Positions 25,841 through 56,410 of a stretch of DNA of 64,000 nt are shown here, one piece after another. Under the pieces are notes generated by a model. That model was not told where the DNA came from and did not search any database. It was given only the letters and a program-made list of their open reading frames with translations. Numbering within the stretch: position 1 is the first letter of the stretch; each line of letters starts with the position of its first letter. The translations under genes were made by a program, and so were the position numbers. The stretch spans positions 124,001 to 188,000 of the forward strand of contig WHUX01000075.1 of NCBI GenBank assembly GCA_015179025.1. The letters run 5' to 3'. Source of the DNA: Terfezia claveryi. Its lineage: Eukaryota; Ascomycota; Pezizomycetes; Pezizales; Pezizaceae.

Positions 25841-28800
25841 ATGAAGCTGCTATCATTTGTTTCCAACGGCATCACACGAGTACAAAATAAGCTAGAAAGA
25901 GCAATCGATAAGATTACTGCACCGGAAGAGGTTGAAGAAATTGCAGGTGTGCGGGAGCGGAATCGGGTACCTGTGACTGCTGAGCGCCCGCTCAACAGTT
26001 CAGTACCTGATAGCGATATCCAAGGGCCCGATCCGCCTCGAGTGCCCGTTTCTGGAACCGTTTCTATGGAATCGACAGTAAGGGAGTTCACTGCTCGGTC
26101 AAGAACATTGGAGACGATAGAGGAGGTGGACAGTGAATTTGAACGAAGTTCAATACTAAGCTCCTTACGAAGTTCAGTATCAAGTGCATCAAGTGGTACC
26201 GAATCTACAATATCCTCAACAATAGCTAGCTCGACAAATCGATCGCCTGGATCCAGCTATGCCTCATCATTAGTCTCCTCCGCCTCACCGTCATCATCAT
26301 CATCATCAATATTATCACGACTATCCAACTCCTCTAATGGTTCAGTAACTTCATCATCGGGATCCTTGTTTGGATCCATAGCCTCCAGATCATCGTCATC
26401 ATCGGGGCTCTCATTCGGATCCAGAGGATCACTAGGGCTAGGATCTGGATTGGGGAAGACCTTCGAAAAATCCCCGAGCTTCATATGGGATTTCAACAGC
26501 CGCCGCCGATTTCAGGAAGCCGCAGCACTTCACTCAATCTTAAACCCCCAGATAATTACTGGGGAAGATGATAAGAAGCCAACGTCTCTCCCAACACCAC
26601 CAGCAACACCAATTTACTCAGCTACTGCCAACTTCCCAGTTGGAGATGAGGATGACGTTATGTCCACAATAACTGTTTCAGGCAACAGCTCAGAATCAAG
26701 GGCATTGGTCGACCAGTTAGCCTTTATTGCTGGAGGCGCTGCGGAGAAGCGGAAGAATAATGTTGTGAAGAAAGATAATGGTGTGGCAATAACAGGGAGT
26801 TACTGGGGGCAAGAGGAGTCGTGGAAGGAAGCTGAGCGGGAGAATATGACTGCGGTGTGTATGGAGCGGTGGAGTCGTGAGAAGGACGGCAAAACTGAGA
26901 GTGGAGTTACTTTCAGGATAGCTATGAATTCCGGTGTACCGCTCGATGTGTTAGAGTGGCTAAAGGGAGTCATAAAGGTCATGGAGCAATGTTCCCGTGG
27001 AGGTGAGATATCTTAGCGCCTTGTTTGAGGGAAGCCAGGACTAATTTTCATATAGCGAGATCTGAGCTAGATTCCGAGGATTTACTTTGGACAATGGTAG
27101 TTGAGATGAACTCAAGAAAAATCTATGACGATATTGTCAAACGATTATACGAACCAGTATCGAGGACCGGCGAAGCAGGAAATTCTATTCCAACTCTTAC
27201 CTCGAGGATAATGCCAATCCTGAAGCAGTACTCTGCCTCGACTGGAAGCAAATTACTAGGCGAAGCTGTGAGTGTAAGAGATGGAGCCACATGTTTAACC
27301 AAACTACACAAGTTATGTGAGAGGATCATTGAACAAGGCCGGAAAGTCGATCAAAAATTATTGAAGGAATTGCTTATTCAATGTTTTCATCTCAGACGAT
27401 CTCGAACATTCAGGGCTTTCATTTTCAGCTTCCAGGAGGGTTATGAGCTATTCAGGACAATTCAGAAGCTAGGCCGTTATCGAATCGCAACACAAGCTTT
27501 GATCGACGCTATTCGTACGAACCCTGGTCAATTCAACAACGTGGAAGTGGAGTCCGTGCAGCCACCCTCGTCGTTTGACGTCAACGCGAGCATTTACCCT
27601 GATGCCGATCTCAAGCAATATCTTAGGGGCCTCATGAATACATGGCGAATAACCAGTATATCAAAGGAGAGTTTCGAGCAGATGAAAGGTCACTTTACGG
27701 ATCGATGTGCGGAGTTGCCTGTTGTTCATGCCGAAATGCAGCTTATCAAGTATTATGAGGAGAATCCAAAGGAGGACCAACCAACTCTGATCGGATGCAG
27801 CAAGAAGCCTTGTCAAATCTGTGTGAGGTTCATCCATTTGCAAGGAAAGTTCCAAGTGGAGAAGGCACACGCGAGGATCAGTCATAGATGGGCAATCCCA
27901 AATATCCGATGTAAGAATGCAGAGACCACTGAGAAAATTTCGGATATCTTGAATACTATTTCGAGGGAGATGGAGGATTCCCTGAAGGAGATAATTAACC
28001 TGGGTCCGAAGGAACAGCCAAAGCGGCTACGGGAAGCGGCAAAAAGCTCTACGTTCTTGTCACCTCATGATATGGTACCTATCTCGAAGAATGCAGTTAC
28101 CCGAATACCCGTGGATATCCAGCATGCGTCCAGCTTCGATTCAGGCTTTGTGGATTCCCCTAATTCGTCTCTTGCATCTTTCGACGGCGCAACAGTCAAA
28201 GATTGGTATGGTGGCCTTAATGGTATCGTGACTAGGGATAATAGCATTGCGGAAACTCCACCTCCTCTTCACAGGCTATACCACCCACCGCCGCCAATCC
28301 CGAACTCTCCACCCCCGCTTCGCCGTCGCCGTGGATCCCCAGGTTCACTAAGTGAGGAGTATAGGATTGCAGAGACCTTTGGCGTACGACTCAGACCTGT
28401 CAGCATGCGTACGACCGCGCACACATCGGCAACATTGGTGGAGGGTCAGCCTTCTCCCCCGCCATCTTCTCCCCCGCCACCAATTCCTAGCATTCCTTCC
28501 AATAAATTGCGCGAAAGAGGTTCATCTCCAACGCTAGGCTGGAATACTAGGTTTCCGAGGCATTCAATCGATTCCCCAGAAACGATAGGCAACTCATTAG
28601 TAGTACCACCCACTCCTCCACCAGAGTTGGAAGGAGAAGTGGAAGGGGAAGGGAAAGCGGAAGAGGAAGAGGAAGAGGAAGAGGAAGAGGAAGTAGGACC
28701 ATCGCAATCAATACCGAACCTGCAAGTGTACCATGGAAGTCAGTCAAGTGGCCTGGATGAAGTACCCGAAGACCCCCAACCTCAGAACTTCAACCGTCCA

Positions 28801-30339
28801 AGCACGCCTCTGGATCCTGCGCTCATATTTTTCCAGAACAGAGCGTCGAGGCCGCGAAGTGTCACGGGTACCAATAGATCATCTGCGATCTCACCACATG
28901 GGAGGCTGAGTAGAGTAGCATCACATCGGAGATTGATCCCGGAACCCCAAAGCGGTTCTGATATATCACCGCCTCTAACACCAAATCCACAACAGAACGT
29001 GGATATTGATAACTCCAAACCCATGCATCCACAGCCGTACTCAGGTACAGGTGGCAGCAGTCAAAACAGTATTGAACGGAGAACTGTCGATGTGGAGATC
29101 GTCGACTCAACATCTCCCCATAGAAATGTTGTTTATGATATAGACGACATACGTCGATTACCGACACCCCCGCGTAATATTTACAGCCACTACCATGACC
29201 GACCACATTCTCCTGGGCGAGGGAAGGCCGCTATATCATCGCTAACAGCATCAGAGTCGAGGCATCGCCTTCGCCATACCCCGCCTGCGAATATTCCGCA
29301 TATTGTCATTACCTCTACCAGTCACCTACAGAATCAGAGTTACCTGCTGAGGGGGCCACGGCCACCACCACAGCTACCAGAAGCATATTACTCGCCTGAT
29401 TCATCCTATCTTTCCCCAACCCCGCCTTCTTCGTCATCTTCATCGAATTCCCTGACGTCATCAATGTATACCCCATCATTATCAAGAAGACATAATAGAC
29501 TCCGTCTTCCACCCACGGGGTCCCCAAGCCCACCTTTAACACCACCGCAGCCTCCAGTATTAGCACTAGACCCAGAGCCCCCAGAGAGTGATTTATCAAC
29601 CACCACAGCAACGGTCTCTTCTTGCTCGTACTTTACGAATAGTACTAATTCCTCATACTTCTCTGGCTCAACAGGTTCATATCTCTCAAGCAGCAGTGGT
29701 GGATCAGCAGCAACAGCAACATCGCACATCTCTATCCCAATAGATGGAGCCCTCAGCTCGCTCGATAGAGAAGTCGAGAGTACTTTGCGTGACACATATC
29801 GATCCTCATCTACTCTCCGCCAGGGCTACAGAACCTCATCGTCAAAATTTCGGCATTCTAGAGATCCTGATCACGACGACTGCAGCGGCCGTGACACTTA
29901 CTACTCCCGGGATAGCCGGTACAGCGGTAGCCACTTATCCAGTCAATTATTATCAGCAGCATCCCATCCACTACGCTTACCTGAGCCTCCAGGCATGAAG
30001 TCGTTTCTCCTTCGTGCAGTCAATAAACAGCAGCAACAGCTGCACCCAGCGGGTGGAGGGGAGAGTGTAAGCTGGATAAATCTCGATATTGGAGAGGATC
30101 TGTTGAGGGGGAGTGAGAGATTTGAGGTTTCGGCCCAGTTGCTTGATCCAGATAAACGGAATCGTCACAGAGACAGAGATAAGACACAGGGGAGTGGTCG
30201 AGAAAGAGGGAGTGTTGATCACGGTGGTGGTGAGGGGAATGGACTGGTGCTGCATCATGAGTATGATAGGAATGCGGACCGGTTGGTGCTTGACATTGAT
30301 TTTGGGGGAGCGGTGTTGAGGTTGAAGATTTATTGGTGA
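25841..30339 (+). CDS. Large protein with OTT_1508-like nucleic-acid/nucleotide deaminase core, two exons
   Basis: Exons are 25841-27002 and 27056-30339; the 53-nt intron (GTGAGA...GGACTAATT...ATAG) joins two long frames into 1481 residues. The core carries the zinc-dependent deaminase signature: HAEMQ with His612 and catalytic Glu614, and KKPCQIC with Cys640 and Cys643. The layout matches the fungal OTT_1508-like branch of the deaminase superfamily, which Aravind and colleagues traced to bacterial toxin systems; substrates in fungi are unknown. A helical, lysine/arginine-containing region (about 390-600) precedes it. The N-terminal 380 residues are Ser-rich. The C-terminal 800 are proline-rich and disordered, with a Glu run near 28650-28692. 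No signal peptide or membrane segment is seen. The fold and metal ligands are clear; the biological role is not. Confidence 0.8.
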
Positions 30340-40502: not shown

Positions 40503-41076
40503 ATGACCACCCCCGAGCATCCAACACTAAGCACACCGCCCACCACCACCCCTACCCCAACCACCGAACCCGAACCATCAAAGAAAATTGAGTTCTGGCG
40601 TGCCCTTTTTGAGAGCCTGATTGTTCCACCACAGGTATGGTATACACATACATATACTCCACAATCCATCCATTTATTTTTTTCACATTCCCTGCTGCAG
40701 AGCCCCCTCCCCCCCTCCCCCCAAAACCCAAAGTACATGTAAACAATCAATAGACCAACTATCTAATACGGTTCCAACCATTTTTTTCCCCCTCCCCCCA
40801 ACCCCTCCACAGATCGACTTTGAAAAATTCGCAAAACTAGCTGGGTATAAAAATGCAGCTTCCGCACGAGTGGTTTATGGATCCAAGAGAAGGAGCCTTG
40901 GTGTGGGTATGGGTAGGGACAAGAATGAAGAGTCAGTTGATGGCACGAAAGCGACTAAGACGAGTAAGGCTTCTTCTTCTTCTGGGAATGGGGTGCCAAA
41001 GAAGAGGGGTAGGAAACCAAAAGTACAACTGAAGAAGGGTGAGGTGGAACATACAAAGGAAGGCGGACTGGCCTAA
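40503..41076 (+). CDS. Small Myb/SANT-like domain protein with AT-hook-like tail (cluster member A)
   Basis: Exons are 40503-40634 and 40813-41076 (178-nt intron, phase 0), giving 131 residues. A Pro/Thr-rich arm leads into a three-helix segment: KKIEFWRALFESL, then after the intron IDFEKFAKLAGYKNAASARVV. This resembles the fungal Myb/SANT-like domain of the Myb_DNA-bind_8 kind. The basic tail carries KKRGRKPK, an AT-hook-like minor-groove binding motif, so nuclear DNA binding is likely. The intron sits between helix 1 and helix 2, at the same place and phase as in the genes at 46.4 and 49.5 kb. The family call is from memory of the fold pattern. Confidence 0.7.
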
Positions 41077-41908
41077 GTGTAATAACAAGAGATGCATAGT
41101 AGGGAATAAGCTTAAGGCAAATTGTGTCGAAATGGAAATTTAATTTTTTCACATATAATAGGTACGCGCTGTTAGAGGGACAGTACATTCCCTAAAAAGT
41201 ATGTAAATAGTCTACGACCAGGTATCATATCACAATCTTCCCAAACCTCTGCTTTTTCAATTCGCTTGAGTCCCGACTTTATTTACTGCTCTATGGGTGG
41301 ATATCGCAACTTCGGACCCAGAATTAGGTTCGCGAAGTTACCCTGAGCTCCCCGATTGCCAAGTGTGGGGCCAGCTTCAAGTTGAAAAGAATGACCGAAG
41401 AAATCACACACTAGGCACGAGATCAGAACTTACTTAGGTGCGGAATGGGAATTCACTAAATTCTCTATTCTGAATATCGAAGGGCTCTGGCGACAAGAGA
41501 CCAATTCGTTGCCAAGCGAGGACAGGTGGGCACTAAGAATTCTAATGGTAGTAGGGTTGAAGTAGTCTGGCTTGCACTGGGTTGAAGGTAGTCTCTGGCT
41601 AGGAGGTTGAAGTCTCTCTCACATGTCCCAGAAAGATTTGACCCATAACTTAGCAAAGTTATGGAAAAAACAGGACTACATAAAAACTGACTCATCCCTA
41701 CTTTGACAAACCAGCAAGCAAGCTAAGCCCGTTCGACAATCTCCCCGAGAGTAGGAGGCGCAGAAGTCACAAGCAATAATCAATTGAATTAACGGGGAAT
41801 TTGAATCCTTCTAGCCGATTCATGATTAAAGGAAGAGCTATTGGTTAAGATGACAGGCTTGATAGAATGGGTAATAAGACGGCCATCGTGATTGTCGTAG
41901 CGTTGTAC
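41077..41908. other. Convergent intergenic region between gene A and cofilin
   Basis: 3' flanks of two convergent genes; no coding content recognised. A variant of the dispersed motif (TAGTCTGGCTTGCAC) lies at 41563-41577. Confidence 0.5.
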
Positions 41909-42571
41909 TTATTGAGTGGACTTCCTCTTAGCAACCTTCTCGAGGACGGCTTCGTAGTCGACCTCGCTGATGTCAGTACCTTGGACGTCGGCGCCGACAC
42001 CGGACAGAGCGCGGCGGAGGGTATCCTTGGAGGAAGCGTAAACCATCTTGCTCTGCTAAATTGTAAGCAATTACTACCTGAAGTATAGATAAGGACATAC
42101 TCGAATTGGGGCAATGTCGGGAGACCATGTAACAAACACAATTTTATTCCTAGTTATGGCGATTTCAATCAGCTATGTTTTCTATGTTGTACTCCAGCTC
42201 ACTAAAAGGTTATCTTACCTCTTTCCCTCGGTTGGATCTAACTCGTAGTGAAAGTCAAAGACGGCATATCTGCATTCGGCCTTTGGTAGTTCGTCGACAA
42301 ACTCCCCGTAGGTCGATTGCTCGCACTTGTCCACTACAATTGTCGTCCTGTCGTCCGAAAGCTTGTAAATGATGTAGGAATAGGTCTTCCTCAGCTTGAG
42401 CTCTTCGAAAGTACTAACACAGTCGGGTCCAAGGCCAACACTAAAGTAGACAAATTGATTAGATTAAAAGAGTAATGAGGCGGGTTCCGTGGGTACCCTG
42501 AACGAGACTACATCATTAGAGGAGGTTAGCATCACTGAGTAGAAGAACGTAGCCCAAGGAGGGCTCACCAT
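41909..42571 (-). CDS. COF1: Cofilin (actin-depolymerising factor), five exons including a 3-nt and an 11-nt exon
   Basis: Cofilin severs and depolymerises actin filaments. Exons on the minus strand are 42569-42571 (ATG only), 42497-42507 (11 nt), 42219-42440, 42101-42149 and 41909-42052; introns are 61, 56, 69 and 48 nt. Splicing gives 142 residues starting MSRSGVGLGPDC, the expected cofilin N-terminus with the regulatory serine near the start. The ADF-H domain fills the protein. The actin-binding long helix is [19 protein letters not shown], and the C-terminal [16 protein letters not shown] is typical. No raw ORF reveals this gene because every exon is short. Frame, length and family signature all agree, so the microexon model is well supported though not proven by transcripts. 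It is divergent from Hsp60. Confidence 0.9.
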
Positions 42572-43173
42572 GATCAAGATATAATATATCTAAACAAAAA
42601 GAGCGAGAACTCGAGAACTCGTAACGTGTGGCTACCCCAAGGCGTCAGTAAATTGTTTGACTTTCATTCTAGCTACTTGCCGAGCTCTCCTCTCGACTTC
42701 CAGCAGCTATAGAAATTCGGCATACCAATAAGCAAGCTAGTAGCTGTGGAAAGCAGATGGGATTTGAGGCAGGAGACCGTTTGTATGTCGGAAATGAGAA
42801 AGGTATGTTTCTTAAGAGAGGTTACGTTAGATGAATAGGAGACGGTGTGAGGGGTATCGTTTGTTTGGCTTAGAGGGTGCTTGCAGCCACCAAAACCACC
42901 GTGGCTGAGGTGGCTTCCCTCATGCCGAGCGTTACGCAAACTCTTGGCCCACAAAAAGATTCAACCACCCATCACGTGAGGATGCCCTAGCCCGAACAAG
43001 GGTATTGTAACAGAGGTTCTCGATGATTCTTCTCCAAATTTTTTCCTTTAGTGCGGCCCGCACTGGAGTAACATATAATCAGCCTCATCATTCCACCTCC
43101 TATCAACATACAACCTCGCTTTCCCCAATTGCATCATTCCAGCCTATCTTAGTCGTCTTTAAGACCCACTACA
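42572..43173. promoter_or_regulatory. Divergent cofilin/HSP60 promoter region
   Basis: 602 bp separate the two ATGs. A heat-shock-element-like array TTCTCGATGATTC (43017-43029) fits TTCnnGAAnnTTC with one mismatch (GAT for GAA), about 145 bp upstream of the HSP60 start. A TATA-like ACATATAA lies at about 43070. CACGTG occurs at 42973-42978. Confidence 0.45.
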
Positions 43174-45057
<1,884 letters not shown>

Positions 45058-45860
45058 ATAGGTAGGTGATGAATATGAAGAGCTGGCTTGATACGATTAA
45101 TGTCCCATTTTTGATTGCTACCCAAACCCCTCCCCCATAGTCGGATATATCTCTCCACTCCTACCTATTTTTTTGTTTGTTGATTTTTCTTTGTCTATAC
45201 GGAAGGAAAAAATAAGCGGAGTTAACTGTTTTCTTCTCGGCATTTATTGATTTTGATGTATATACTTTTATCAATTCCAAAGGTAATCTCTGCTTTTTAT
45301 GCAAAGCGGCATCGAGACAGATATGCCGTCGTTACCCTCAATTGAATCTCTAAGGATATATGTTACATACCGTATTATCTAGAGAAATTCGTTAGCCCAA
45401 ACACGTCGCTAAAGCATGCAGGTGGAGGGTTATGCTCAAGAAGGCAAAGGACCGCATACCGACATATTGAGCAAACAACAATAATTAACCTCATCGAAGG
45501 CAGAAGATGTAGATAGCAAACTCAAATACTACAATGAAGTTCATCCATTTTGTTTTATGCTTAAGCCTATTTGTATATTATGTTTTGGGGGCACCACCAA
45601 GACACGAGTTTTGCAGCGTATATCAGTTTCTGATACCAATATATATATATCCTACAGCACCCATTTGGTAGTCGATCCCTGCTACGCCACGAGCAAAACA
45701 GCGAGCCTAAGAGTTTGGAAAATCGAGTACGGTAGTACCGCATCTAACGATCCTTGTCAGCTCTACATAATATGCATCAGGCATGCACATAATGAACAAT
45801 TGTTGAAAAGGTTAGAAGTTAGAGGACCATACCAGATGGGCGCTCACGGTGTAAGCTTTG

Positions 45861-46037
45861 TACCGGAAAACTGGTGAGTAAGACTCCTTGTCTGTCTCTT
45901 TGCTCTTTCCTTTTTGTGGTAGGAGCGTTACTAGTTGTGGGCAGATTAGCGTCCTTGACTCGAATTTTGACTTATTCTATCCGTAGAGTTATGATTCAGA
46001 TACAGACAAGGAGTCTTATTCACCAGTTTTCCCGGTA
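45861..46037. mobile_element. MITE with about 37-bp terminal inverted repeats and TA ends
   Basis: The left end (45861-45899) and the reverse complement of the right end (45999-46037) match over about 37 bp with one indel and two or three mismatches, sharing GGTGA-TAAGACTCCTTGTC. Both termini read TA-CCGG, fitting the TA target-site duplication of Tc1/mariner-type elements. The 100-bp core has no coding capacity, so it would need a transposase from elsewhere. Confidence 0.75.
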
Positions 46038-46088
46038 TCTCTCTAGGTTAGAAGGGTTGGGAACGAGACCCAGCAGAGGTTTATTTGC

Positions 46089-46119
46089 GCGACCGAACTA
46101 GAGGCTTGGCATGAGACTA
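46089..46119. repeat. Dispersed 30-bp repeat, copy 2
   Basis: Shares CTAGAGGCTTGG-ATGAGACTA and flanking bases with 35034-35063. It lies 52 bp beyond the MITE. Confidence 0.6.
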
Positions 46120-46419
46120 GTCGATTTTAATCAAGGTAGGTTAAAGTAGTGGATGCGAGAAATAGTTCAGGGTAACTATAACTTGTCCTCCGTTAGTTGA
46201 AGCGGTGTATGAGGTTCAGTAAAGTACTATAGTACTATACCATCATACTCGGTACTAATAATATGGGGATTCATGGCTAACAGATAAAAAATCCACAAAT
46301 GAATGTAACGAATAAAAATAGTATAACCATAAACTAACAGCTTAGCTAGCTACCTGCAGTATTACTCGCAACATTTCTCAACAGCCCCATTGGCGAAACC
46401 CCATGCTAGTGTGATTACC

Positions 46420-46924
46420 TCAAGCCTCCTCAGTCACCTTTCCCGGTCCGTCTTCTTGTTCTTCAGCTTTCTTCGCCGCTGGTTTTCTCACTCTAGGCTT
46501 CCTCTGGGCGCTATCTTTAGGAGGCTTCGGCTTCGATGCCTTCTGGGCTTTCTGGGCTTTTACGATTTTGGATTCTGGCCTAGCTTTGAGGCTTGTTCTC
46601 TCCACCCCTAGTTTTTTAAGCTTCTTGCAATAGCAGTCGCGTGCCACTTTTGCGCTTTTATACCCCATTTCCGTGGCAAGTTTATCATAATTAATCTGGG
46701 AACGTTAGCTCCATTTGTGGAATGGGGATTATAAATTCAGCAATATAAAGAGGGGAATAACTGACTTTTGGCTCGGTATCCATGCATCGAAATACAATGG
46801 GCCAAAAATCGGCTTTCTTGTCCAGGACAGCGCTGTCTCCTTCAGCCTGTGGCTGTGGAGAATTTGTGTTGTCTTCTTCAGTTGGTGCTTGCGGTGGTGG
46901 GGAGCTGGCAGGTGGCGAGGACAT
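46420..46924 (-). CDS. Small Myb/SANT-like domain protein with lysine-rich tail (cluster member B)
   Basis: Exons are 46766-46924 and 46420-46695; the 70-nt intron has a GTCAGT donor, a GCTAACG branch and a CCCAG acceptor, phase 0. The product is 144 residues. A Pro/acid-rich arm precedes DKKADFWPIVFRCM and, after the intron, INYDKLATEMGYKSAKVARD, closely parallel to member A in spacing and in the intron site. The tail (KPRVRKPAAKKAEEQ and similar) is histone-H1-like and basic, so chromatin association is plausible. I recognise a fungal Myb/SANT-like domain but no specific ortholog. Convergent with HSP60. Confidence 0.7.
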
Positions 46925-49460
46925 CCTAGTGAATAGAGGGGAGTTCGAATATGTCTCGACCTAGGTAATTTTGGATATTTTTAATTCGGGTGTAAGGGTA
47001 TATTAGACAGCTGAGACCGAGGGTATAGGGTCTATTAATGGCTGGTTGCCTACATTTATATAGTATGTAGTCCTGACTGTTTACTCAATGATTCGGTTCA
47101 CGTCCTGTTGGCACCAGACTCATATCCATACGAATTGAAGAACAAAAACTACCTGTATCCACTGGACTGACAGCTTGTTTGCTACTGTGGATGCACTATG
47201 TCTCTAGTTCGTTAGAAACTGGGTGCGGGTGTCACTAACCGGATAGTTAAGTCTAGTAACTCCCGCTAGATGAAGGGAGCTCTGACAAGATCTAGAGGGA
47301 TAGCTAATTATCAATATTGGAACAGACTAGAAAAAAAAAGGAACGTAAAAGCGTATCTTAGAGTTAGTTGTTGTTTGATCTAGTTAGCTGTTCTACCAAC
47401 CCAAACACAAGCTCTCTTCTTATGCTAAACAACTTCTGAATATATCAATATTCTCGTCTATCTTAGCCTTATAATCTTACACTGCCAATCAATAAAGGAA
47501 GCTCGAGAAACTATGGTATGCTCGACAACCACTTGACGTTTGCAGCTGCATGCAGCAAGCTTGAGACTGTATAACGGCCACAAGGGATTCTTCTACAGCT
47601 ACTAGAGACTACGAACTCTATAGACCAAAACATAGCAAGATCACAGATTTCTTCCAGTTAAAGCCATACGGTCACTGTTGACTATGACAAGTTATATATA
47701 GAATAAACTTTGACCTTCTAGACGGTCTCCACAAGGATAACACTCTCTTTCACTCTGGCCGGTACTCTGGATTATCAATGGATCCGTGGTACTCCACTTC
47801 GAGAAAGAACCCCTAAGTATCAAGTAGCTCTCTCTCTGTGTATATATATGATGCATGTGTGCCGTTGGCTTCAAGAATCCCAGTATGTACAGTCTGGTTC
47901 AGAAAGTGTCCGGGACGCATAAAACGAGCTGTATTTATGTCTGTCTGTATGTCTTTGAGCTCTACCTCAATCCACAAAGGACTGGCTGAATGGTTTTCCA
48001 AATTCTCAGACACTTGTGTTTAAAAAACCAGCCACTACAGCTGAGGTGTTCTGGGACTAGGGACGTGCCAAATATTCATTCAAGATAGAAAGAGAATCCC
48101 TCCCCTAGGTATTGTAAATGTGTCTGAAATCGAAACAACGTAGACTCTACTAGATATATATTCCTCCCACTATTTTTCCCTCCTGTGACCGCGTGGTGGT
48201 TGTCCAACATAGTTTATTTGTTTAGCCAAAGTCTTCCCATTGTGAGTCGCCCGTCTGTCACGGCACTGGGTTTACCCTTCCCTACAGGTGGCTAGGGTAC
48301 CAATACATCTCCAACCCTCCTTTATGCAAGGTACGTATTAAGAGATATACTAGATGAATTCTGTGAAGAAACCACGACGGCTTCACAGTATAAGTTCAAG
48401 GCATGGTCACTGCTAAGAGAAGATGATTGCCTTAGAGAAGCGAAGGAAACTACTTAGGGAGCTCTTAGCCCAACAAATATATCCATTCTCTTGAGATACA
48501 TGAATACTAAATTCTTACGATTAATCCTTCTCTCTACTCGTTCCTCCGCCCCGGCATAACTATGGCCCCTAGAAGGTGAAGATCGGGTGGATATCATCAT
48601 TTAGGGGAGTTTATGTCATCTTCTTGGGTTGGGAATTGTGGACAGGGTTTCAGGGACAAGATGGCGAGGTAAGAGTTTTGGTTCCCGAGGATGCAATTTC
48701 CTTCCGCATTCACTCTCGTAAGATTTCTATTGGCCGATCGTCCGCTCTAGAAGCTTGATCAGGATATCCAACTATCGTCGCGATGACTGTATTTACCTCT
48801 CCCTTCCTACATAATATGGGTCTCTATTCCGTCTTTTATCGATGGTGAATTATTCTTGTCCTTGTGTGCTGTATATTCCGCACTCCAGCATTAGTTCACG
48901 GCCACCGCTTGTTATCCCTTGACGTCAAGCTTATGGCAGAAGTGTTATAATAGGTCGCCACAGGCTACGTCAGCTCCGAACTTGTAGTCTGGTTGGCACA
49001 ACTTCTCGTAGAGAGCTTATCGTAGAGAACCAAAACGGGTTCAAAGTAATGTCACGTGTTTATGCTAGCTGAAAGTGGAAGTATATCACCGGTTTAGGAA
49101 GTCCTCACCAACAGCGCGAGTAGTGGGTATACCGGTAGAAAACTGGATGCGTATACCTAACCAGACAGAATACCCAGGAACCTAGTGTGATTAGCACGCG
49201 GCGGTATCGCAACTCTAAATAAATTGAATCACCTGGTGAGAAGCTAGAATCTTTAATGAGACTATGTATACTTGTTCTGTTTTATATGTACTGAGCAATC
49301 GAGCTATTAGTACAGCTATAACTAGAACTCATTTCTTCCAAGTCTCCGTCTTTAACCTATCCAATCCAATGGCCATTCCAGATCTCATGATCCCAATACT
49401 CGGCGGCGTTATAACCGCGATGACTGCACGAAATTTCTGCACATTCACATCTCAGTGAAA
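46925..49460. other. 2.5-kb intergenic region in the Myb/SANT-like cluster
   Basis: No gene supported after checking for further copies of the small domain. Several frames of about 60 aa lack splice context. A perfect copy of the dispersed 15-mer is at 48985-48999. A TATACCGGTAGAAAACTGG stretch near 49127-49145 resembles the MITE terminus at 45861. Confidence 0.5.
48985..48999 (+). repeat. Dispersed 15-mer TAGTCTGGTTGGCAC
   Basis: Perfect copy followed by AAC, as at 35767. Confidence 0.8.
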
Positions 49461-49923
49461 TCACACATATGTATCCTTCTCTACCTTTACCTCAACAAAA
49501 GTCTCCTGGACTTCTTCCGTGCCCTGTGCAGGCTTCTCGGGGTCCTGCTCAACCTTAATCTCCTGTTTCACTACTTTTCGCGATGACGCTTCACTACTAC
49601 TGTCGTCGTCTCCCATCATATATCTTCGTTTCTTTTTCTTGATTCGAGATTCTCTTGAGGATGGCTCTGGGACTGGCCCATTATTCTCTTCCTTTACACT
49701 TGCTCTGAAACGAATCCAGCGATTTTGTGCAGATTTGGCGGTGATCCCGTTCTCTTCTGCGATCTGGTTCCAATTGGGCTTCGGCGTGTAATGTCAGCAT
49801 TAAGGGTGAACAGGACGGCTGGCTGATAGTGCTAGCTTCGGGAGGAAACAGAAGGAAGTTATACTAACTAACCTTGTCTATCTGCTTTGCCATGCTATAG
49901 AGAAATTTTTCGTTTTTCGTCAT
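49461..49923 (-). CDS. Small Myb/SANT-like domain protein rich in SUMO-acceptor motifs (cluster member C)
   Basis: Exons are 49873-49923 (17 codons) and 49461-49778; intron 94 nt, phase 0, donor GTTAGT. The product is 122 residues. MTKNEKFLYSMAKQIDK forms helix 1, then PNWNQIAEENGITAKSAQNR forms helices 2 and 3 of a Myb/SANT-like domain. The intron site equals that of members A and B. The tail has a basic patch (IKKKKRR, likely nuclear import) and four hydrophobic-K-x-E sites (VKEE, VKQE, IKVE, VKVE). It is head to head with member D, 726 bp apart. Confidence 0.65.
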
Positions 49924-50649
49924 ATTGAAAGGAGACGTGTATATTAAATTGGTAGATGTGTATACGGTCTTTTCGTGATGGACGATAAGCAAAAGTGAGG
50001 ATAGATACGCACAGTAGCCTAGATACTTGGGGGTGTTTATGGTTTAATATGCCTAATTCTCATAATTTGCAAAGAGCTGACGATTCATCTACATATGCGA
50101 GGAGGATTGATCTATATTTGCGAGGAAGATTCTACACGAACAAAGATATGTCATGTTTGGGCTGTCATGGATGGGAGCTGTTTGTTTAAGCTTAATATTA
50201 GGTTGGGCTTTGATATAAGAACATCGAACAGTATTTACTTTATTTATGGACGCAAAAAGAGGTTGATACTTCATGAGTGACTCCTGTTTGCTTTCACCCG
50301 CATAGTCCATCCACCCACTTAATACGCTTCGGCATAATGCATCTCAGGAGCAAACTTCCATCAGAATCATTGGTTGTCATTGATTCTCAGCTTTCCTCAG
50401 CTTTCCCCAATACCCTTCGTTTGCTCACATACTACTATCCCATTCCTTGTCAGAATGCCTACAAACACCATATTTCCCCCGTAACTTTCTTCTTCCATCA
50501 AACAACCATCTTCTCTGTCAGCTTCCATAGTTCAAAATACCTTACTGTCTATCTTTCCAGTAACACATCCACATTCCATCACATCTTTCAAACACCTAGT
50601 AGCGTTACCCCATTTCTGCCAGTTTCTGCCTTTATATCTACCCGAAAAA
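49924..50649. promoter_or_regulatory. Divergent promoter region between members C and D
   Basis: 726 bp between two start codons on opposite strands, so both promoters lie here. No specific site recognised. The 250 bp before member D is pyrimidine-rich on the plus strand, as is common for fungal transcription starts. Confidence 0.45.
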
Positions 50650-51259
50650 ATGCCATCATGGTCAGACTCTGAACGCAATAAGATGTTTCTTGCAATGATC
50701 GAGTTAATGGCTCCACATGGGTCGAATAATAAACTTCCCTCTTGGACTCTTGTCGCGGAAAGAATGCAAAGCGGGTTCACCGGGGAGGCAGTTAGGTATA
50801 TCTGTTTTTTCTCACCTACTTGCCATGAATCTACCTTTTCATATACCCAACGAGTTATTCCGTCCTTATACCTCACTAGTATAAATTGCAAACTGACAAT
50901 TATCCCTCGACAGACAGCAATTCCAAAAATGCCGAAAAGAGGGCCTGCCCCGAAATATACCTCCACGGAGCTCATCTGGGAAGACTTCCTCTAGCCGTTC
51001 GAGAGCTTCCCGCGGCGGAAAGCGATTCTCCTCAGGTGACTTTGACGATGACGATGACGAGTCGCTGTTATCTGCCAATAAGAGAGTGAAGCTGGAGGCA
51101 AACAAGTTGTTAGCCACTGGGATTCATAGCGCTGGACAACTTGCGAATGCGAACGATGGTGCAAGGCCAGTGAAGATGGAGAATATGGATGGAGAGCAGG
51201 CCATTGGAGCGCATGTGGGTATGGGGATAGGAATGGAGATGGGTGTTGGGAGTAATTAG
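50650..51259 (+). CDS. Small Myb/SANT-like domain protein with acidic and Met/Gly tail (cluster member D)
   Basis: Exons are 50650-50795 and 50914-51259; intron 118 nt, phase 2, within the codon for Arg49. The product is 163 residues. The domain starts at the Met: MPSWSDSERNKMFLAMIELM, then LPSWTLVAERM and the third helix EAVRQQFQKCRKEG. The tail has a Ser/Arg-rich basic segment, an acidic run (DFDDDDDE), KRVKLEANK, VKMEN (two SUMO-acceptor-like sites) and a Met/Gly-rich end. The tryptophan pattern is Myb-like. The intron position differs from every other member. Convergent with member E. Confidence 0.65.
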
Positions 51260-51925
51260 TCATTTGATTCTGGGGCTCTAGTTGCGGAAGAGCTAGCTAA
51301 GGAGCGTTTGACTGACAAGTAGATATGCTCACCTCTGGTGCACTGGTGATGAAAGATGGGGTTTCGAGGAATATTATAATCGGATGAGATGGGCGAGAGC
51401 GGCAACTGCCTAGCCCTTTGTGGGTGCTAGATTGGGTAGTGACGAACGAATATTATTGAATTTTTTTCCCACCTCCAATTCACTGAAACCGATTGGTAAA
51501 ATATATATATGACCGTTACGTGATGGTGGCCCCTTTTGAACTGTTTGTTCTGTAGGGTCTAGAAACTAGTATGACGTCGCAATCATTAATGTAGCGGCGT
51601 ACGTATAGCCATATTGTTCTGTTTTAGGTATGCAACATTCTTCACAAAGATTTCTTCGGCGTCATGCATGGCCTATAAATCTGTATTTTTAAGTAATCAG
51701 GAGTGAGACCGGGTAGGGTGGAGATAAATTAATTATATCCACTACTTGGGATTGGAAGTTCAGGGTAACAGACTACTATTAAGAAATACCAGCACTCGTT
51801 GTGCTAAAGGCCTAATGTTGACTGCATTTTGCAATTAATGTATATAATGTGCATTCAGATACATACATCACATCATATATATGTGTCTAGCTTATATAAA
51901 AAGATGCAACTACTTCACATCCAAT
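51260..51925. other. Convergent intergenic region between members D and E
   Basis: 3' flanks of two convergent genes. AT-rich with a short TA run near 51500. No gene or repeat of note. Confidence 0.5.
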
Positions 51926-52590
51926 TTACTCATCATCATCAGAATCATTAGTTCCATTCACACTTCCATCGCCACCACGCCTCTTCTTAATCCTCTCCGC
52001 AACCGCCCCCGCACTTGCAGTAGTTGTCTGCCACCCTTGTAATCCTACCACTACCATTGGGCTAGACTTACGCTTCCTCGTGGTATTCTGCGGAGTAGCA
52101 ATCGGGGTAATAATCTCAACATAAAGCTCTCTATCCTCCTTTTCATTCTTGTTACTTTCTTCAGCCTTGATTTCAACCTCCTCCTTAATTTCCACCCCCG
52201 TTAAGCTTCCTCTTTCCCCACCATCATCTTCGTCAAGATTGACTTGCCATTTCTCCTTCCCTGGTTTACTCCCCCCTTTTCCCTTTTTCACCTTCTTGCC
52301 CAGGGATCCACCATCGATACCACGAACCCCAGGTTCACTCTTGACAGCGATGCTGTTCCGGAGGAAACGGATGCGATCTTTGATGGCACGAGAGGTGGGA
52401 ACTTCACTGTCGGGAGGACGAGGCCAGGCGGACCGGATTTTCTCGGCGTTGGTTACAGTTGGAGTGGGTTGTGCTTCGATAAACTGGATTAGAAGCTGTG
52501 AGAGATGGAGGAAGGAAGGTTAGTGGTGATAAGTAAAAAGAAAGCGTATGGGGGACTCACGAGGAGATCCTTATCAGGAGTCCACTTCAT
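51926..52590 (-). CDS. Small Myb/SANT-like domain protein (cluster member E)
   Basis: Exons are 52561-52590 (10 codons) and 51926-52495; intron 65 nt, phase 0, with GTGAGT, a CACTAACC branch and a CACAG acceptor. The product is 199 residues. The domain opens the protein: MKWTPDKDLL|LLIQFIEAQ (bar marks the intron), then NAEKIRSAWP and TSRAIKDRIRFLRN as helices 2 and 3. The tail is basic (KKVKKGKGG), then acidic with VKSE, IKEE and IKAE SUMO-acceptor-like sites, a second basic patch (RIKKRRGG) and a DSDDDE end. The helix-1 intron matches that of member G in position and phase. Confidence 0.68.
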
Positions 52591-54198
52591 TTTGTTTAGC
52601 AGGACAGTGAAATGATTTGTGACGATATGGCTGAAGAACCGAGTGAAATATTGTGGATTACCGTGGGAGTTTTTGATATGCTCGTCAAAGCTTGCAGTAG
52701 ATATATATATAGGTATTGAGGCAAAAGAGGAGAAGAGTACTCTCTTTTGATATCTGTTGGGTATGAGGATATATTGAAGGAGTATATAACAGGTAGATAG
52801 AGGTTCTTGGATTCGTTCCCACTTCGAAAGACACGAAGCAGGTACGTTGAGGGGATTAAACATCCCGAATTGTTGACTCAGGAATAAAGTATGATTGTTT
52901 TTCTCGTTACTTCGCTCAATGCTTTTTGTAGGGGTCTGAGACAAGAAGAACACAGGAAGATGCTTGGACGGGTTTGTCAGGAATATGAACATGAATCTGA
53001 TGATCAGAGCTAGGGGCTTCCACCATGATCAGGGTAAACAGTAACCCACATTTACAGATGCAGTTTCCACAGCATTCCAATAGGCCCAAATACTTCAAGT
53101 TTGCCACCATACTCTACCTTATTTGTATCAAAGCTTCGATCTGTTCAATAAGCCATGTCTTGATTCTCGGTTCTTCTTCATTCCCGTACGCCGTCTACGT
53201 TCACATCCTCCTGTCGATACATCATCTACCTAGTTTCTGGTCCATTTGGTCCCATCTTTCATTTGCATGCTCGTACTACGTTTGCTCATTCGACATCAAT
53301 ATATGCAGTCCAGGTTCCAGAAGCAGCTTAAAAGGCAAGTTACATGTTGAGCAACTGGGTTCTGATTCCTCCCAAGTTTGCTGTCTCAATTGCAACATCG
53401 TTATCATGAGTACTAGTATCTAAATGTGGCAGTTTGAAGATCGAGAGCACAGGCATATTAAACAGGGTTTAAGAATTAACACAAAACTCCAGGACATTTA
53501 CCGGTGTTAGCAGAGCCGTTGAGACAAGCATATGCATCACTATCCCTATGAGAGCATGGTGGTCCATGACTACTGTTTTAGGATGTCCACGGAAATCAGG
53601 TAAGTTAGTTGGCTATGATCGAGACTAAGTTGGCTAGCGCTGGTAACCTTCCAGAAGCGGTAATTTCAACGTCAGCACTTGCTCTTCAAAGACCACAGCC
53701 TAAGTACCGTACTTACGTGCTAATTGAAACAAGGGCCAATTGAGCAAACTAGATACTTTTGCAAACACAGCTTGGGACGTACCTACTATACATCCTAGTA
53801 AGTATCAGAAGAGATTGATTTGATGAATTGCTGGCGCGGTCAAGAAAGAGCAATCAATAGTAAATCTCGAGAGTTTCCATATCGCAAATCAAAGAAGATG
53901 GTGGAGCAACCTAAAAGAGTATGGAGCATGCGTGTCGTATCGTGAACTTATTCCGTACTGCGTTCTTTGTCAAGAATGGGCTCTCACGAATTATGAGAAT
54001 ACCCATGTAATCAATATATAAAGCAGCTCAAAGTAGTCTCCATGCATGTCATTAATTCCTACTGTTCCACCTGCCCAAACATAGAGTTACATTTTTATTG
54101 ACGTCCAGTACTCCTGTGCTGTTCTTGTTACCTCATATATCCCTTTCAGCTACTGCAATAGTCAGTACAGCCAGATTTCACAAATCCGCCTCACCACA
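52591..54198. promoter_or_regulatory. Divergent region between members E and F
   Basis: 1.6 kb between start codons on opposite strands. It holds both promoters. I looked for another copy of the small domain and found none. The plus-strand frame at 53025-53423 has no family resemblance. Confidence 0.45.
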
Positions 54199-54546
54199 AT
54201 GCGCTGGGACCATCAAGCGGATAACGAGATTTTATGTATCCTGCTACGGCTCCTCCAGGAGCAGGGCATAGCCATCCCGTATGCAGATATTGCTGCGCAA
54301 TTCGGGCACGGAATAACGTTGGCTTCACTCAAGCATCGCATCCAGAGAATCCAGAGGAGCAAATATACAAACAAGGCCGAAGAAATCCAGGGAGAAGTGG
54401 GAGGCGTAGAAGGGATAAGCTCGCCCCATGATACACCAGCGAAGCCACCGACCAAGAGAGTCAAGAGGGTCGAGAAGGCCAAGATGGCCAAGAAGCCACA
54501 GGTTGAGAAAGCCGTCGGGCATCAAGTGGAAAAATCTAGCGGATAA
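54199..54546 (+). CDS. Small Myb/SANT-like domain protein, intronless (cluster member F)
   Basis: A single exon codes for 115 residues. MRWDHQADNEILCILLRLLQ gives helix 1, IPYADIAAQFG helix 2 and TLASLKHRIQRIQRSK helix 3. The tail is basic and Pro/Lys-rich (KPPTKRVKRVEKAKMAKK), fitting nuclear DNA binding. Unlike most members it has no intron and no SUMO-acceptor-like site. It is the first of three members on the same strand (F, G, H). Confidence 0.65.
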   Translation: MRWDHQADNEILCILLRLLQEQGIAIPYADIAAQFGHGITLASLKHRIQRIQRSKYTNKAEEIQGEVGGVEGISSPHDTPAKPPTKRVKRVEKAKMAKKPQVEKAVGHQVEKSSG

Positions 54547-55123
54547 GATTGCCCCAACAAAGAGGGAGGAGTGTTTGGTGTTAGTACTGCGATATGAGTT
54601 GGAGAGTCAATTGCAGAAGATTATGTAGATTCATATGTGGAGGTTACTTGGTTACTATGTGTAAAAACGAGTGCAGAAGGGGGTATATATTTATAGGGAA
54701 TATGTAAGGGTGTGAGGTTTCTATTTGAAGGAATTTTGAATCCATTGCATCACATAACTCCGGACTGTCATTCACCTGCTTCACCGTACCGATAGATGTT
54801 CCTCATGCGCAAGAGTACGGTAGTAGGTGTAAATTCTGAATCAATGGCCCATGCACGGCCCCGTCAATATGTTATGGATTTCCCATCAATTGCATATCCC
54901 ATTTCATCAAGTTTGCCCTGACTGCAAAACGGGCCGCTGCCTTAATTACGGGCAAACCTGATATATCCCAGCAGTTCTGAGAAGGGATTTAAAAGCACAA
55001 ATGCCTGACATTCTTCCATAAGCATCTCTCCAATCCTCTTCACTTGCGAAGCATCCCTTTTACTATCATCGAAAGCACTTGATTTCAGCCGCCCAGTAAA
55101 CCTGAGTACTTCCTGATAAAATC
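54547..55123. other. Intergenic region between members F and G
   Basis: 577 bp, AT-rich, no coding content recognised. It presumably holds the F terminator and the G promoter. Confidence 0.45.
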
Positions 55124-55661
55124 ATGCCGAAAGTTGTAAGTTTTTCCTCCCAATATCTAATGTTGCTATAATGGAACCATAGATTAACAAACAAACTAAC
55201 TTTAGGTTTGGTCTGCGGATAATGATCGAAAAGTCAGCATATCCGCATTCAATTGCCATGAATGTTACCGTGAACGTTGGGCTGACTAGAAGCAAGCTGC
55301 TAATCCGGCTGATTGACCGTTCTGCAAAATCTTACGATTCCATATCGTTATCCAAACTATTTCCAGGTGAATCCTCAACCTTTCAAGTGCGTTCGATAGA
55401 ACTACTTTGTTCCGTTCGCTCAAATATCCCTAGCTAACTTAAAGAGAAGGCGCTACACCGAAAGCAATTGAAGAGCGCATAGCCAAACTCAAACGGGAAG
55501 CAAAGGCTCTAGATGGGCCTGGAAAATCTGTCAAAACTCCTCCAGCCGCACCAATGGGCAAGAAAAGAAGGAAATCTACCAAGGGTATGGGTATGGGAGA
55601 CGAAGATGACGAAGAAGAAGAATACGGTGAAAATAAGAAGAAAGTCAAGTTGGAATGCTAG
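55124..55661 (+). CDS. Small Myb/SANT-like domain protein, four exons (cluster member G)
   Basis: Exons are 55124-55135 (12 nt), 55206-55232 (27 nt), 55297-55366 and 55447-55661, giving 107 residues. Introns are 70, 64 and 80 nt with consistent phases (0, 0, 1). The spliced N-terminus reads MPKVVWSADNDRK|LLIRLID (helix 1), then SISLSKLFPEGATPKAIEER into a basic third helix. The tail has KKRRKSTKG, an acidic run (DEDDEEEEYGE) and a terminal VKLEC. No raw frame shows the protein intact. The second intron falls at the same helix-1 point as in member E. Exon choice rests on splice signals and on similarity to the other members, so the first two short exons are the least certain. Confidence 0.6.
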
Positions 55662-55990
55662 TTGTTTCTTATGCATGAATGTCTGATTGAGTGAGGTGGC
55701 TAAATTGAAATTGTTTGTTATGGCTGTCTGTATTCAGGGTCACGCTCACCACTCATAGAGCCTCCCAGATTTCTGTCTCGAAATGTAATAATAGCCCTGA
55801 AAACGCGGATCTTACAGTACTTATATGTGAAATCGAATTCTCCTAATCACCCAATTGCACCGGGTCCAGTCACACTCATAAACTGACTTCCTAGCCACCC
55901 ATCGGGCCAGATATCGAATACCGCAATAGTGGGGTATGTATATGGCCCAAAGTATTGAACCTAGGTTGTTCTAACTACTCTCAGATAACC
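55662..55990. other. Intergenic region between members G and H
   Basis: 329 bp, no coding content. It holds the G terminator and the H promoter. Confidence 0.45.
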
Positions 55991-56410
55991 ATGAAGTGGG
56001 ATGCCAGCACCGACCGTGTGTTACTCCTAGCAATCTTGGAGAGCCACAACATCACGGTCGATTATGAATCCGTTGCTCGCAACATTGGCAACGGATGTTC
56101 CGCGAGGGCCGTCTATACGCAGTTACTTAAGCTTCGAAAGATGGCAACAGAAAACCGGTCGAACCTAACTAAGAAAACATCCAGGAAGGGTGGAAAAGGA
56201 AAAGTAAGCTTTGGTGATGACGACGAGGACGTCAAAAACTTCAAACCTCGACCTTTCCTGCAGCGGAAGGTGAAAACTGAACAAGGGGAACATAAGATTA
56301 AGCACGAAACAGAGGTGGCAACCGTAATCAAAAGGGAAGGAAAGGAAGCTCAGTTCAGCGATGTTATTATCATTGATGATGACGAAGATGATGGTGAAGA
56401 TGATGAATAG
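55991..56410 (+). CDS. Small Myb/SANT-like domain protein with SUMO-acceptor sites and a SIM-like tail (cluster member H)
   Basis: A single exon codes for 139 residues from the ATG at 55991. MKWDASTDRVLLLAILESHN is helix 1, VDYESVARNIG helix 2 and SARAVYTQLLKLRKMA helix 3. A basic, Lys-rich middle is followed by three hydrophobic-K-x-E sites (VKTE, IKHE, IKRE). The C-terminus is DVIIIDDDEDDGEDDE: a hydrophobic V-I-I-I core followed by acidic residues, the standard form of a SUMO-interaction motif. Both acceptor-type and binding-type motifs in one small DNA-binding-like protein are unusual. Confidence 0.68.
   Translation: MKWDASTDRVLLLAILESHNITVDYESVARNIGNGCSARAVYTQLLKLRKMATENRSNLTKKTSRKGGKGKVSFGDDDEDVKNFKPRPFLQRKVKTEQGEHKIKHETEVATVIKREGKEAQFSDVIIIDDDEDDGEDDE

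Follow-up and report, generated by a model that had tools for sequence, protein, structure and literature searches.

Is the group of eight small Myb-like genes in this part of the Terfezia claveryi genome a fast-changing array, of the kind that might serve genome defence or self-recognition, or is it a conserved locus for gene control? Within the window (the whole stretch of DNA analysed here, 64,000 nucleotides) the segment from 40.5 to 56.4 kb holds eight small genes on both strands, M1 to M8, which encode proteins of 106-199 amino acids. Taken together, our comparisons fit a conserved locus for gene control better than a fast-changing array for defence. The reading that we favour, on which our judgement is evenly poised, is an old local family of single-repeat Myb-like regulators with a predicted DNA-binding domain and putative SUMO-controlled tails.

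Gene models and coding evidence

The first-pass annotation had placed eight genes here with products of 131, 144, 122, 163, 199, 115, 107 and 139 aa, and had stated that only cofilin and Hsp60 lie between them. Both places and sizes were reproduced, with M7 refined to 106 aa; cofilin and Hsp60 are indeed the only other genes recognised within the cluster, and both sit between M1 and M2. The gene models are as follows.

M1: 40503..41076, plus strand; 131 aa; exons 40503-40634 and 40813-41076; identical to deposited P0053
M2: 46420..46924, minus strand; 144 aa; exons 46924-46766 and 46695-46420; metagenome orthologue P0009
M3: 49461..49923, minus strand; 122 aa; exons 49923-49873 and 49778-49461; metagenome orthologue P0007
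M4: 50650..51259, plus strand; 163 aa; exons 50650-50795 and 50914-51259; identical to deposited P0015
M5: 51926..52590, minus strand; 199 aa; exons 52590-52561 and 52495-51926; identical to deposited P0017
M6: 54199..54546, plus strand; 115 aa; intronless; no orthologue found; weak paralogue of M8
M7: 55124..55661, plus strand; 106 aa; exons 55124-55135, 55206-55232, 55297-55366 and 55450-55661
M8: 55991..56410, plus strand; 139 aa; intronless

Six of the genes contain introns, eight in total, all of them GT-AG. The last exon of M7 was moved to start at 55450 by comparison with relatives, which shortens the earlier 107-aa model to 106 aa. The deposited T. claveryi model of M7 (P0016, 135 aa) is without the tryptophan-bearing exon; because this exon is present in K. 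pfeilii P0022 and P. echinospora P0023, the M7 exon of the first-pass annotation is better supported than the deposited model. In M1 the Myb-like domain spans approximately residues 26-76, and the tail contains an AT-hook-like KKRGRKPK.

M1, M4 and M5 are identical to the deposited T. claveryi proteins BGX38DRAFT_1261528, BGX38DRAFT_1204307 and BGX38DRAFT_1144372, respectively, and homologue searches returned no named T. claveryi protein for M2, M3 or M8. The codon score, which is largely a matter of amino-acid composition, lay above all 60 intergenic control segments for seven of the eight genes and above 58 of the 60 for M7. By synonymous codons alone, M5 and M6 stand out (1 of 60 controls as high in each case), as does M4 (4 of 60), and M7 (58 of 60 as high) and M2 (43 of 60) do not. 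Chance ORFs were rejected in view of the identical deposited proteins together with the codon score, within the limits that its dependence on composition sets. For M2, M3, M7 and M8, the support as real genes comes from comparison with their orthologous sequences.

Copies elsewhere in the genome

A wider genome-level family of M1-M8 relatives was sought across the 72.6-Mb genome and none was found. Single-sequence six-frame searches returned no paralogues outside the window for any of the eight; the counts from these searches are lower bounds, because six-frame searches break at introns and distant split copies may escape. An all-member profile picked out no additional copy elsewhere on the 255.8-kb contig (best other segment, E 0.044). 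The Pfam model PF22980 (Myb_DNA-bind_8) matched M3 only in the genome, and the classical Myb model PF13921 matched 20 places, of which one, a weak match, is on the same contig outside the window and the other 19 lie on different contigs. No direct DNA repeat of 25 nt or longer was found in 40-57 kb; nothing there points to recent copying, and recent tandem duplication was rejected on this ground. The gap at 47.0-49.4 kb was also considered as a transposon bed and rejected, its matches elsewhere being short dispersed pieces of 33-53 bp only.

Relation among the eight genes

If the cluster is a family, as the first-pass annotation supposed, a profile of some members should retrieve the others. 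In a leave-one-out test, in which one group was omitted and the profile of the others was run against 7988 background segments, this was the case for M5-M8, marginally so for M3 and M4, and not for M1 and M2. M8 (E 1.7e-8), M7 (2.8e-7), M6 (2e-6) and M5 (0.0053) were retrieved above all background segments, and so were M4 (0.11) and M3 (0.22) in spite of their weak E-values. M2 reached E 95 with 109 background segments scoring better, and M1 was not found by the profile of the other members. The retrieval of M3-M8 above background therefore supports six of the eight genes as one superfamily. Profile-profile comparison ties M4 to M8 (probability 96) and to M7 (92), and on these sequence comparisons M4-M8 are one family, in which M4 is marginal by leave-one-out and firm by profile-profile. 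M1 and M2 pair with each other (39% domain identity, M1 being the nearest relative of M2 in the genome), and are tied only weakly to the other six, by PF22980 scores below the cut-off and by an intron placed as in M3, so that their membership is no more than suggested.

An intron just before helix 2 lies at the same place in M1, M2 and M3, and an intron position within helix 1 is common to M5 and M7. Two Orbiliomycete entries (P0047 and P0048) have extra residues exactly at the M5/M7 helix-1 intron point, as if this intron had been read through, in which case it would be old. Paralogue domains within the cluster are 19-39% identical. The domain tree, built on 62 columns, resolves little (23 of 34 inner branches are open) and served only to spot long branches; M5 and M6 sit on such branches. 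The relation of M4-M8 and the shared intron positions thus agree with the earlier view that this is a local group of related Myb-like genes, each with a single domain, that probably arose by duplication.

The Myb-like domain

The domains probably share a three-helix Myb-like fold, which was predicted for the M7-type domain and for M8. For the M7-type protein P0022 the predicted structure has three helices at good confidence, with Myb/GARP domains among its best matches at modest scores; M8 is likewise predicted with three helices, at lower confidence. Helix 3 has a net charge of +3 to +6 in all eight proteins, and this basic third helix is predicted as the part that most likely binds DNA. Behind the domain each protein has a disordered tail, both basic and acidic. 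Of the classical set of three Myb tryptophans, M4-M8 retain only the first, apart from a second one in M4.

By Pfam, M3 is a member of PF22980 (43.9 bits vs. a curated cut-off of 27; E 1.4e-11). M2 (14.9 bits, E 0.016) and M1 (12.4 bits, E 0.1) score below the cut-off, as do T. nivea P0057 (E 0.063) and the M8-type P0058, and M4-M8 give no match at E 1 or better. Among the relatives, 4 of 17 match the model at E 0.1 or better. A PDB sequence search with the M8 profile gave five matches (best E 0.23), none of them a Myb.

Age and conserved neighbourhood

M7 is the most widely conserved domain of the cluster. Homologue searches found its relatives in Pezizomycetes, Orbiliomycetes and Geoglossum, with domain identities to the T. 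claveryi gene of 78-94% over 18 relatives; M7 is the member to study first because its domain is still 80-86% identical between this Pezizomycete and ten Orbiliomycetes. Relatives of M4 occur in Pezizaceae (K. pfeilii, P. echinospora) and Ascobolus and, more distantly, in Circinaria (98, 98, 60 and 40% domain identity over four relatives), and in two other Pezizaceae the domains of M7 and M4 reach 94-98% identity. M8 has relatives in Tirmania, Wilcoxina, Maublancomyces, Rhizina and Tuber, with 48-98% domain identity over ten of them (82-98% in six close and 48-61% in four more distant relatives). Family or class was checked against taxonomic records for T. nivea, K. pfeilii, Rhizina, Maublancomyces, O. 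oligospora, T. claveryi and P. echinospora; the other relatives are placed by their usual classification. The tails are 27-51% identical to those of relatives for M7 and M4 and 23-94% for M8.

The rapid divergence proposed in the first-pass annotation is therefore contradicted for the core of the cluster by the identities of M7 and M4 in the two Pezizaceae, of M7 in the ten Orbiliomycetes and of M8 in its six close relatives. At least M4, M7 and M8 are old genes with good conservation among related fungi. M5 and M6 may evolve fast; homologue searches including both found no orthologues of either.

The neighbour pairs are old as well: other Pezizomycetes still have M7-type genes next to M8-type ones. 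Both types turned up in just two other named species, Rhizina and Maublancomyces, and in each the M8-type and M7-type genes have consecutive locus tags. Three metagenome M8/M7-type pairs (P0003/P0024, P0004/P0042 and P0056/P0033) come from the same source and from contigs of equal size, and so each pair probably shares a single contig. The M7- and M4-type identifiers of P. echinospora are three apart, on contigs of equal size. The T. nivea relatives of M1 and M8 are both on a 1.12-Mb-sized contig (weak evidence of linkage); against linkage, the M7- and M4-types of K. pfeilii lie on contigs of different size.

SUMO-type motifs in the tails

Sites of the form psi-K-x-E and hydrophobic-acidic strings mark SUMO biology. 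A search of the tails for psi-K-x-E, written as [VIL]K.E, gave eleven sites (three in M3, two each in M4 and M5, one in M7 and three in M8) and none in the tails of M1, M2 and M6. They are listed here with a SUMO-interacting-motif type string near the end of M8.

49571-49560, 49559-49548 and 49490-49479, minus strand: psi-K-x-E in M3
51086-51097 and 51170-51181, plus strand: psi-K-x-E in M4
52189-52178 and 52171-52160, minus strand: psi-K-x-E in M5
55644-55655, plus strand: psi-K-x-E in M7
56270-56281, 56297-56308 and 56327-56338, plus strand: psi-K-x-E in M8
56360..56392, plus strand: DVIIIDDDEDD near the M8 C-terminus, of SUMO-interacting-motif type, kept in several M8-type relatives

Compared with composition shuffles, the sites are in excess in M8 (p 0.0008), M4 (0.001), M3 (0.0014) and M5 (0.037); for M7 alone (0.087) the result is not significant. 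As controls, the mirror motif occurs four times in the eight tails (two in M3, one each in M2 and M8), and psi-R-x-E and psi-K-x-D do not occur. Across twelve further ORFs of the window, most of them complete proteins with a different composition, there are one psi-K-x-E and eight mirror motifs in total. In chosen relatives the ratio of forward to mirror motifs is 9:0 for the M4-type (4 proteins), 10:0 for the Pezizomycete M7-type (7), 15:3 for the M8-type (7) and 0:0 for the Orbiliomycete M7-type (5).

At least one psi-K-x-E is present in 7/7 M4-type relatives, in 11/13 M7-type relatives from Pezizomycetes or metagenomes, in 11/16 M8-type relatives in the wide sense, in the one M3-type relative and in neither of two M1/M2-type relatives. 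Most Pezizomycete relatives thus retain the site while the remainder of the tail diverges. The hydrophobic-acidic string of the M8 end is matched in 7 of the 16 M8-type relatives. None of the M7-type relatives from eight Orbiliomycetes and one Geoglossum has a site. If SUMO control is real, it would therefore have been gained after, or lost from, an older function of this domain.

Proposed working and alternatives

How could such proteins work? DNA binding, the attachment and reading of SUMO and a regulatory role are all inferred in the scheme that we find most likely: the Myb-like domain would bring the protein to chromatin, SUMO attached to the tail would alter its partners or stability, and the C-terminal string of M8 would read SUMO on M8 itself or on neighbouring paralogues. 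A more elaborate form, which we regard as a long shot, sees an ancient Pezizomycete regulatory locus in which an M7/M8-type pair and its diversified neighbours act in mixed chromatin complexes glued by SUMO, with M8 recognising SUMO carried by the tails of its linked paralogues; the genome neighbourhood would then reflect a partnership of the products. Among the functions suggested in the first-pass annotation, locus-specific chromatin control would come close to our preferred reading, and for genome defence or self-recognition we found no evidence. A fast-evolving array for those purposes would fit the low identity between paralogue domains and the long branches of M5 and M6, whose orthologues were not found. 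It is very improbable, however, given the strong conservation of the M4, M7 and M8 domains between genera and of M7 even between classes, the age of the neighbour pairs and the lack of recent copies.

Could the domains instead be SANT-like binders of proteins or histones, in small adaptors of chromatin complexes, with the SUMO-type sites incidental or secondary? Myb and SANT belong to the same general fold class, the scores to DNA-binding Mybs are modest, and the first classical tryptophan alone is kept across M4-M8. Helix 3 of a typical SANT domain is acidic, however, whereas it is basic in all eight proteins here, and M3 belongs to a Pfam family named DNA-binding (a name, not a test); we consider this explanation possible but unlikely. 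Doubtful, too, is a DNA-binding single-Myb protein without SUMO control, in which psi-K-x-E and VIIIDDDED arise as a side effect of disordered tails rich in K, E and D, with these tails used for nuclear localisation and acidic contact. The tails are of low complexity, and the site is absent from three of the eight genes and from each of the nine M7 relatives examined in Orbiliomycetes and Geoglossum, yet M3, M4, M5 and M8 have more sites than composition shuffles, forward motifs outnumber mirror motifs in M4-, M7- and M8-type relatives, and the sites are kept as the tails diverge. The cluster might also be a mixture, with M3-M8 as one Myb-like family and M1 and M2 as an unrelated helical pair alongside, in line with the failure of the profile of other members to retrieve these two; the weak PF22980 scores of M2, M1 and T. 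nivea P0057 and the intron of M1/M2 at the same place as in M3 speak against it, and we doubt that it holds.

Comparison with known Myb and SANT proteins

Single-domain Myb-like proteins are already known, and the named relatives found here are annotated as hypothetical, uncharacterized or Myb-like domain-containing protein. Within the open-access literature searched (PF22980, small Pezizomycotina Myb-like/SANT proteins, desert-truffle Myb-like domains, and SUMO with Myb) we found no account of the cluster family, and the conserved cluster with SUMO-type tails was not found described; nor is a family of these small Myb-like proteins treated in passages of PMC8396895 and PMC3998117. Our favoured reading, of DNA-bound and SUMO-controlled proteins, gives this unstudied family a concrete idea that can be tested.

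The nearest named family is PF22980, whose model M3 passes and which has a short single Myb-like domain as in the cluster; M4-M8 are unmatched by it, so most of the cluster falls outside the family as now drawn. Classical R2R3 Myb proteins have at least two repeats, each with three spaced tryptophans, whereas M1-M8 have one domain per protein and M4-M8 mainly the first tryptophan only. From typical SANT domains all eight differ in the charge of helix 3. The single-Myb/GARP proteins ARR1, ARR10, RAD and LUX and the Myb structure of Cdc5 resemble the M7-type domain in its predicted three-helix arrangement and basic helix 3. In alignments, however, ARR1, LUX, RAD and Cdc5 (6jui) are only 14-32% identical to the M7-type domain, and the cluster differs from the single-Myb/GARP domains and Cdc5 in having one tryptophan instead of three and unrelated tails.

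Gene model of M7 and search of the contig

In the deposited T. claveryi protein model of M7 (P0016, BGX38DRAFT_1316416), the small Myb-like gene at window 55124-55661 (+), the second exon differs from the exon structure described here, and the conserved VVWSADNDRK segment is missing. When a profile built from all cluster members was run against the rest of the contig (C723), the top non-member segment was C723:247119-247244, outside the window, with an E-value of 0.044.

Neighboring ORFs and repeats

A Ser-rich ORF (25841-27016) precedes a long ORF at window 27025-30339, whose product combines a deaminase domain of the OTT_1508-like type with a Ser/Pro-rich tail of great length. Within the cluster, an inverted repeat at 45865-46032 has 35-nt arms that are 94% complementary and enclose 98 nt. 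Between M2 and M3, a stretch of approximately 36-44 bp at 47882-47929 has copies on several other contigs (89-98% identity), and further short dispersed pieces were matched near 48983-49034 and 49176-49231. The inverted repeat appears similar to a small MITE-type hairpin element, and the stretch at 47882-47929 looks like a transposon end.
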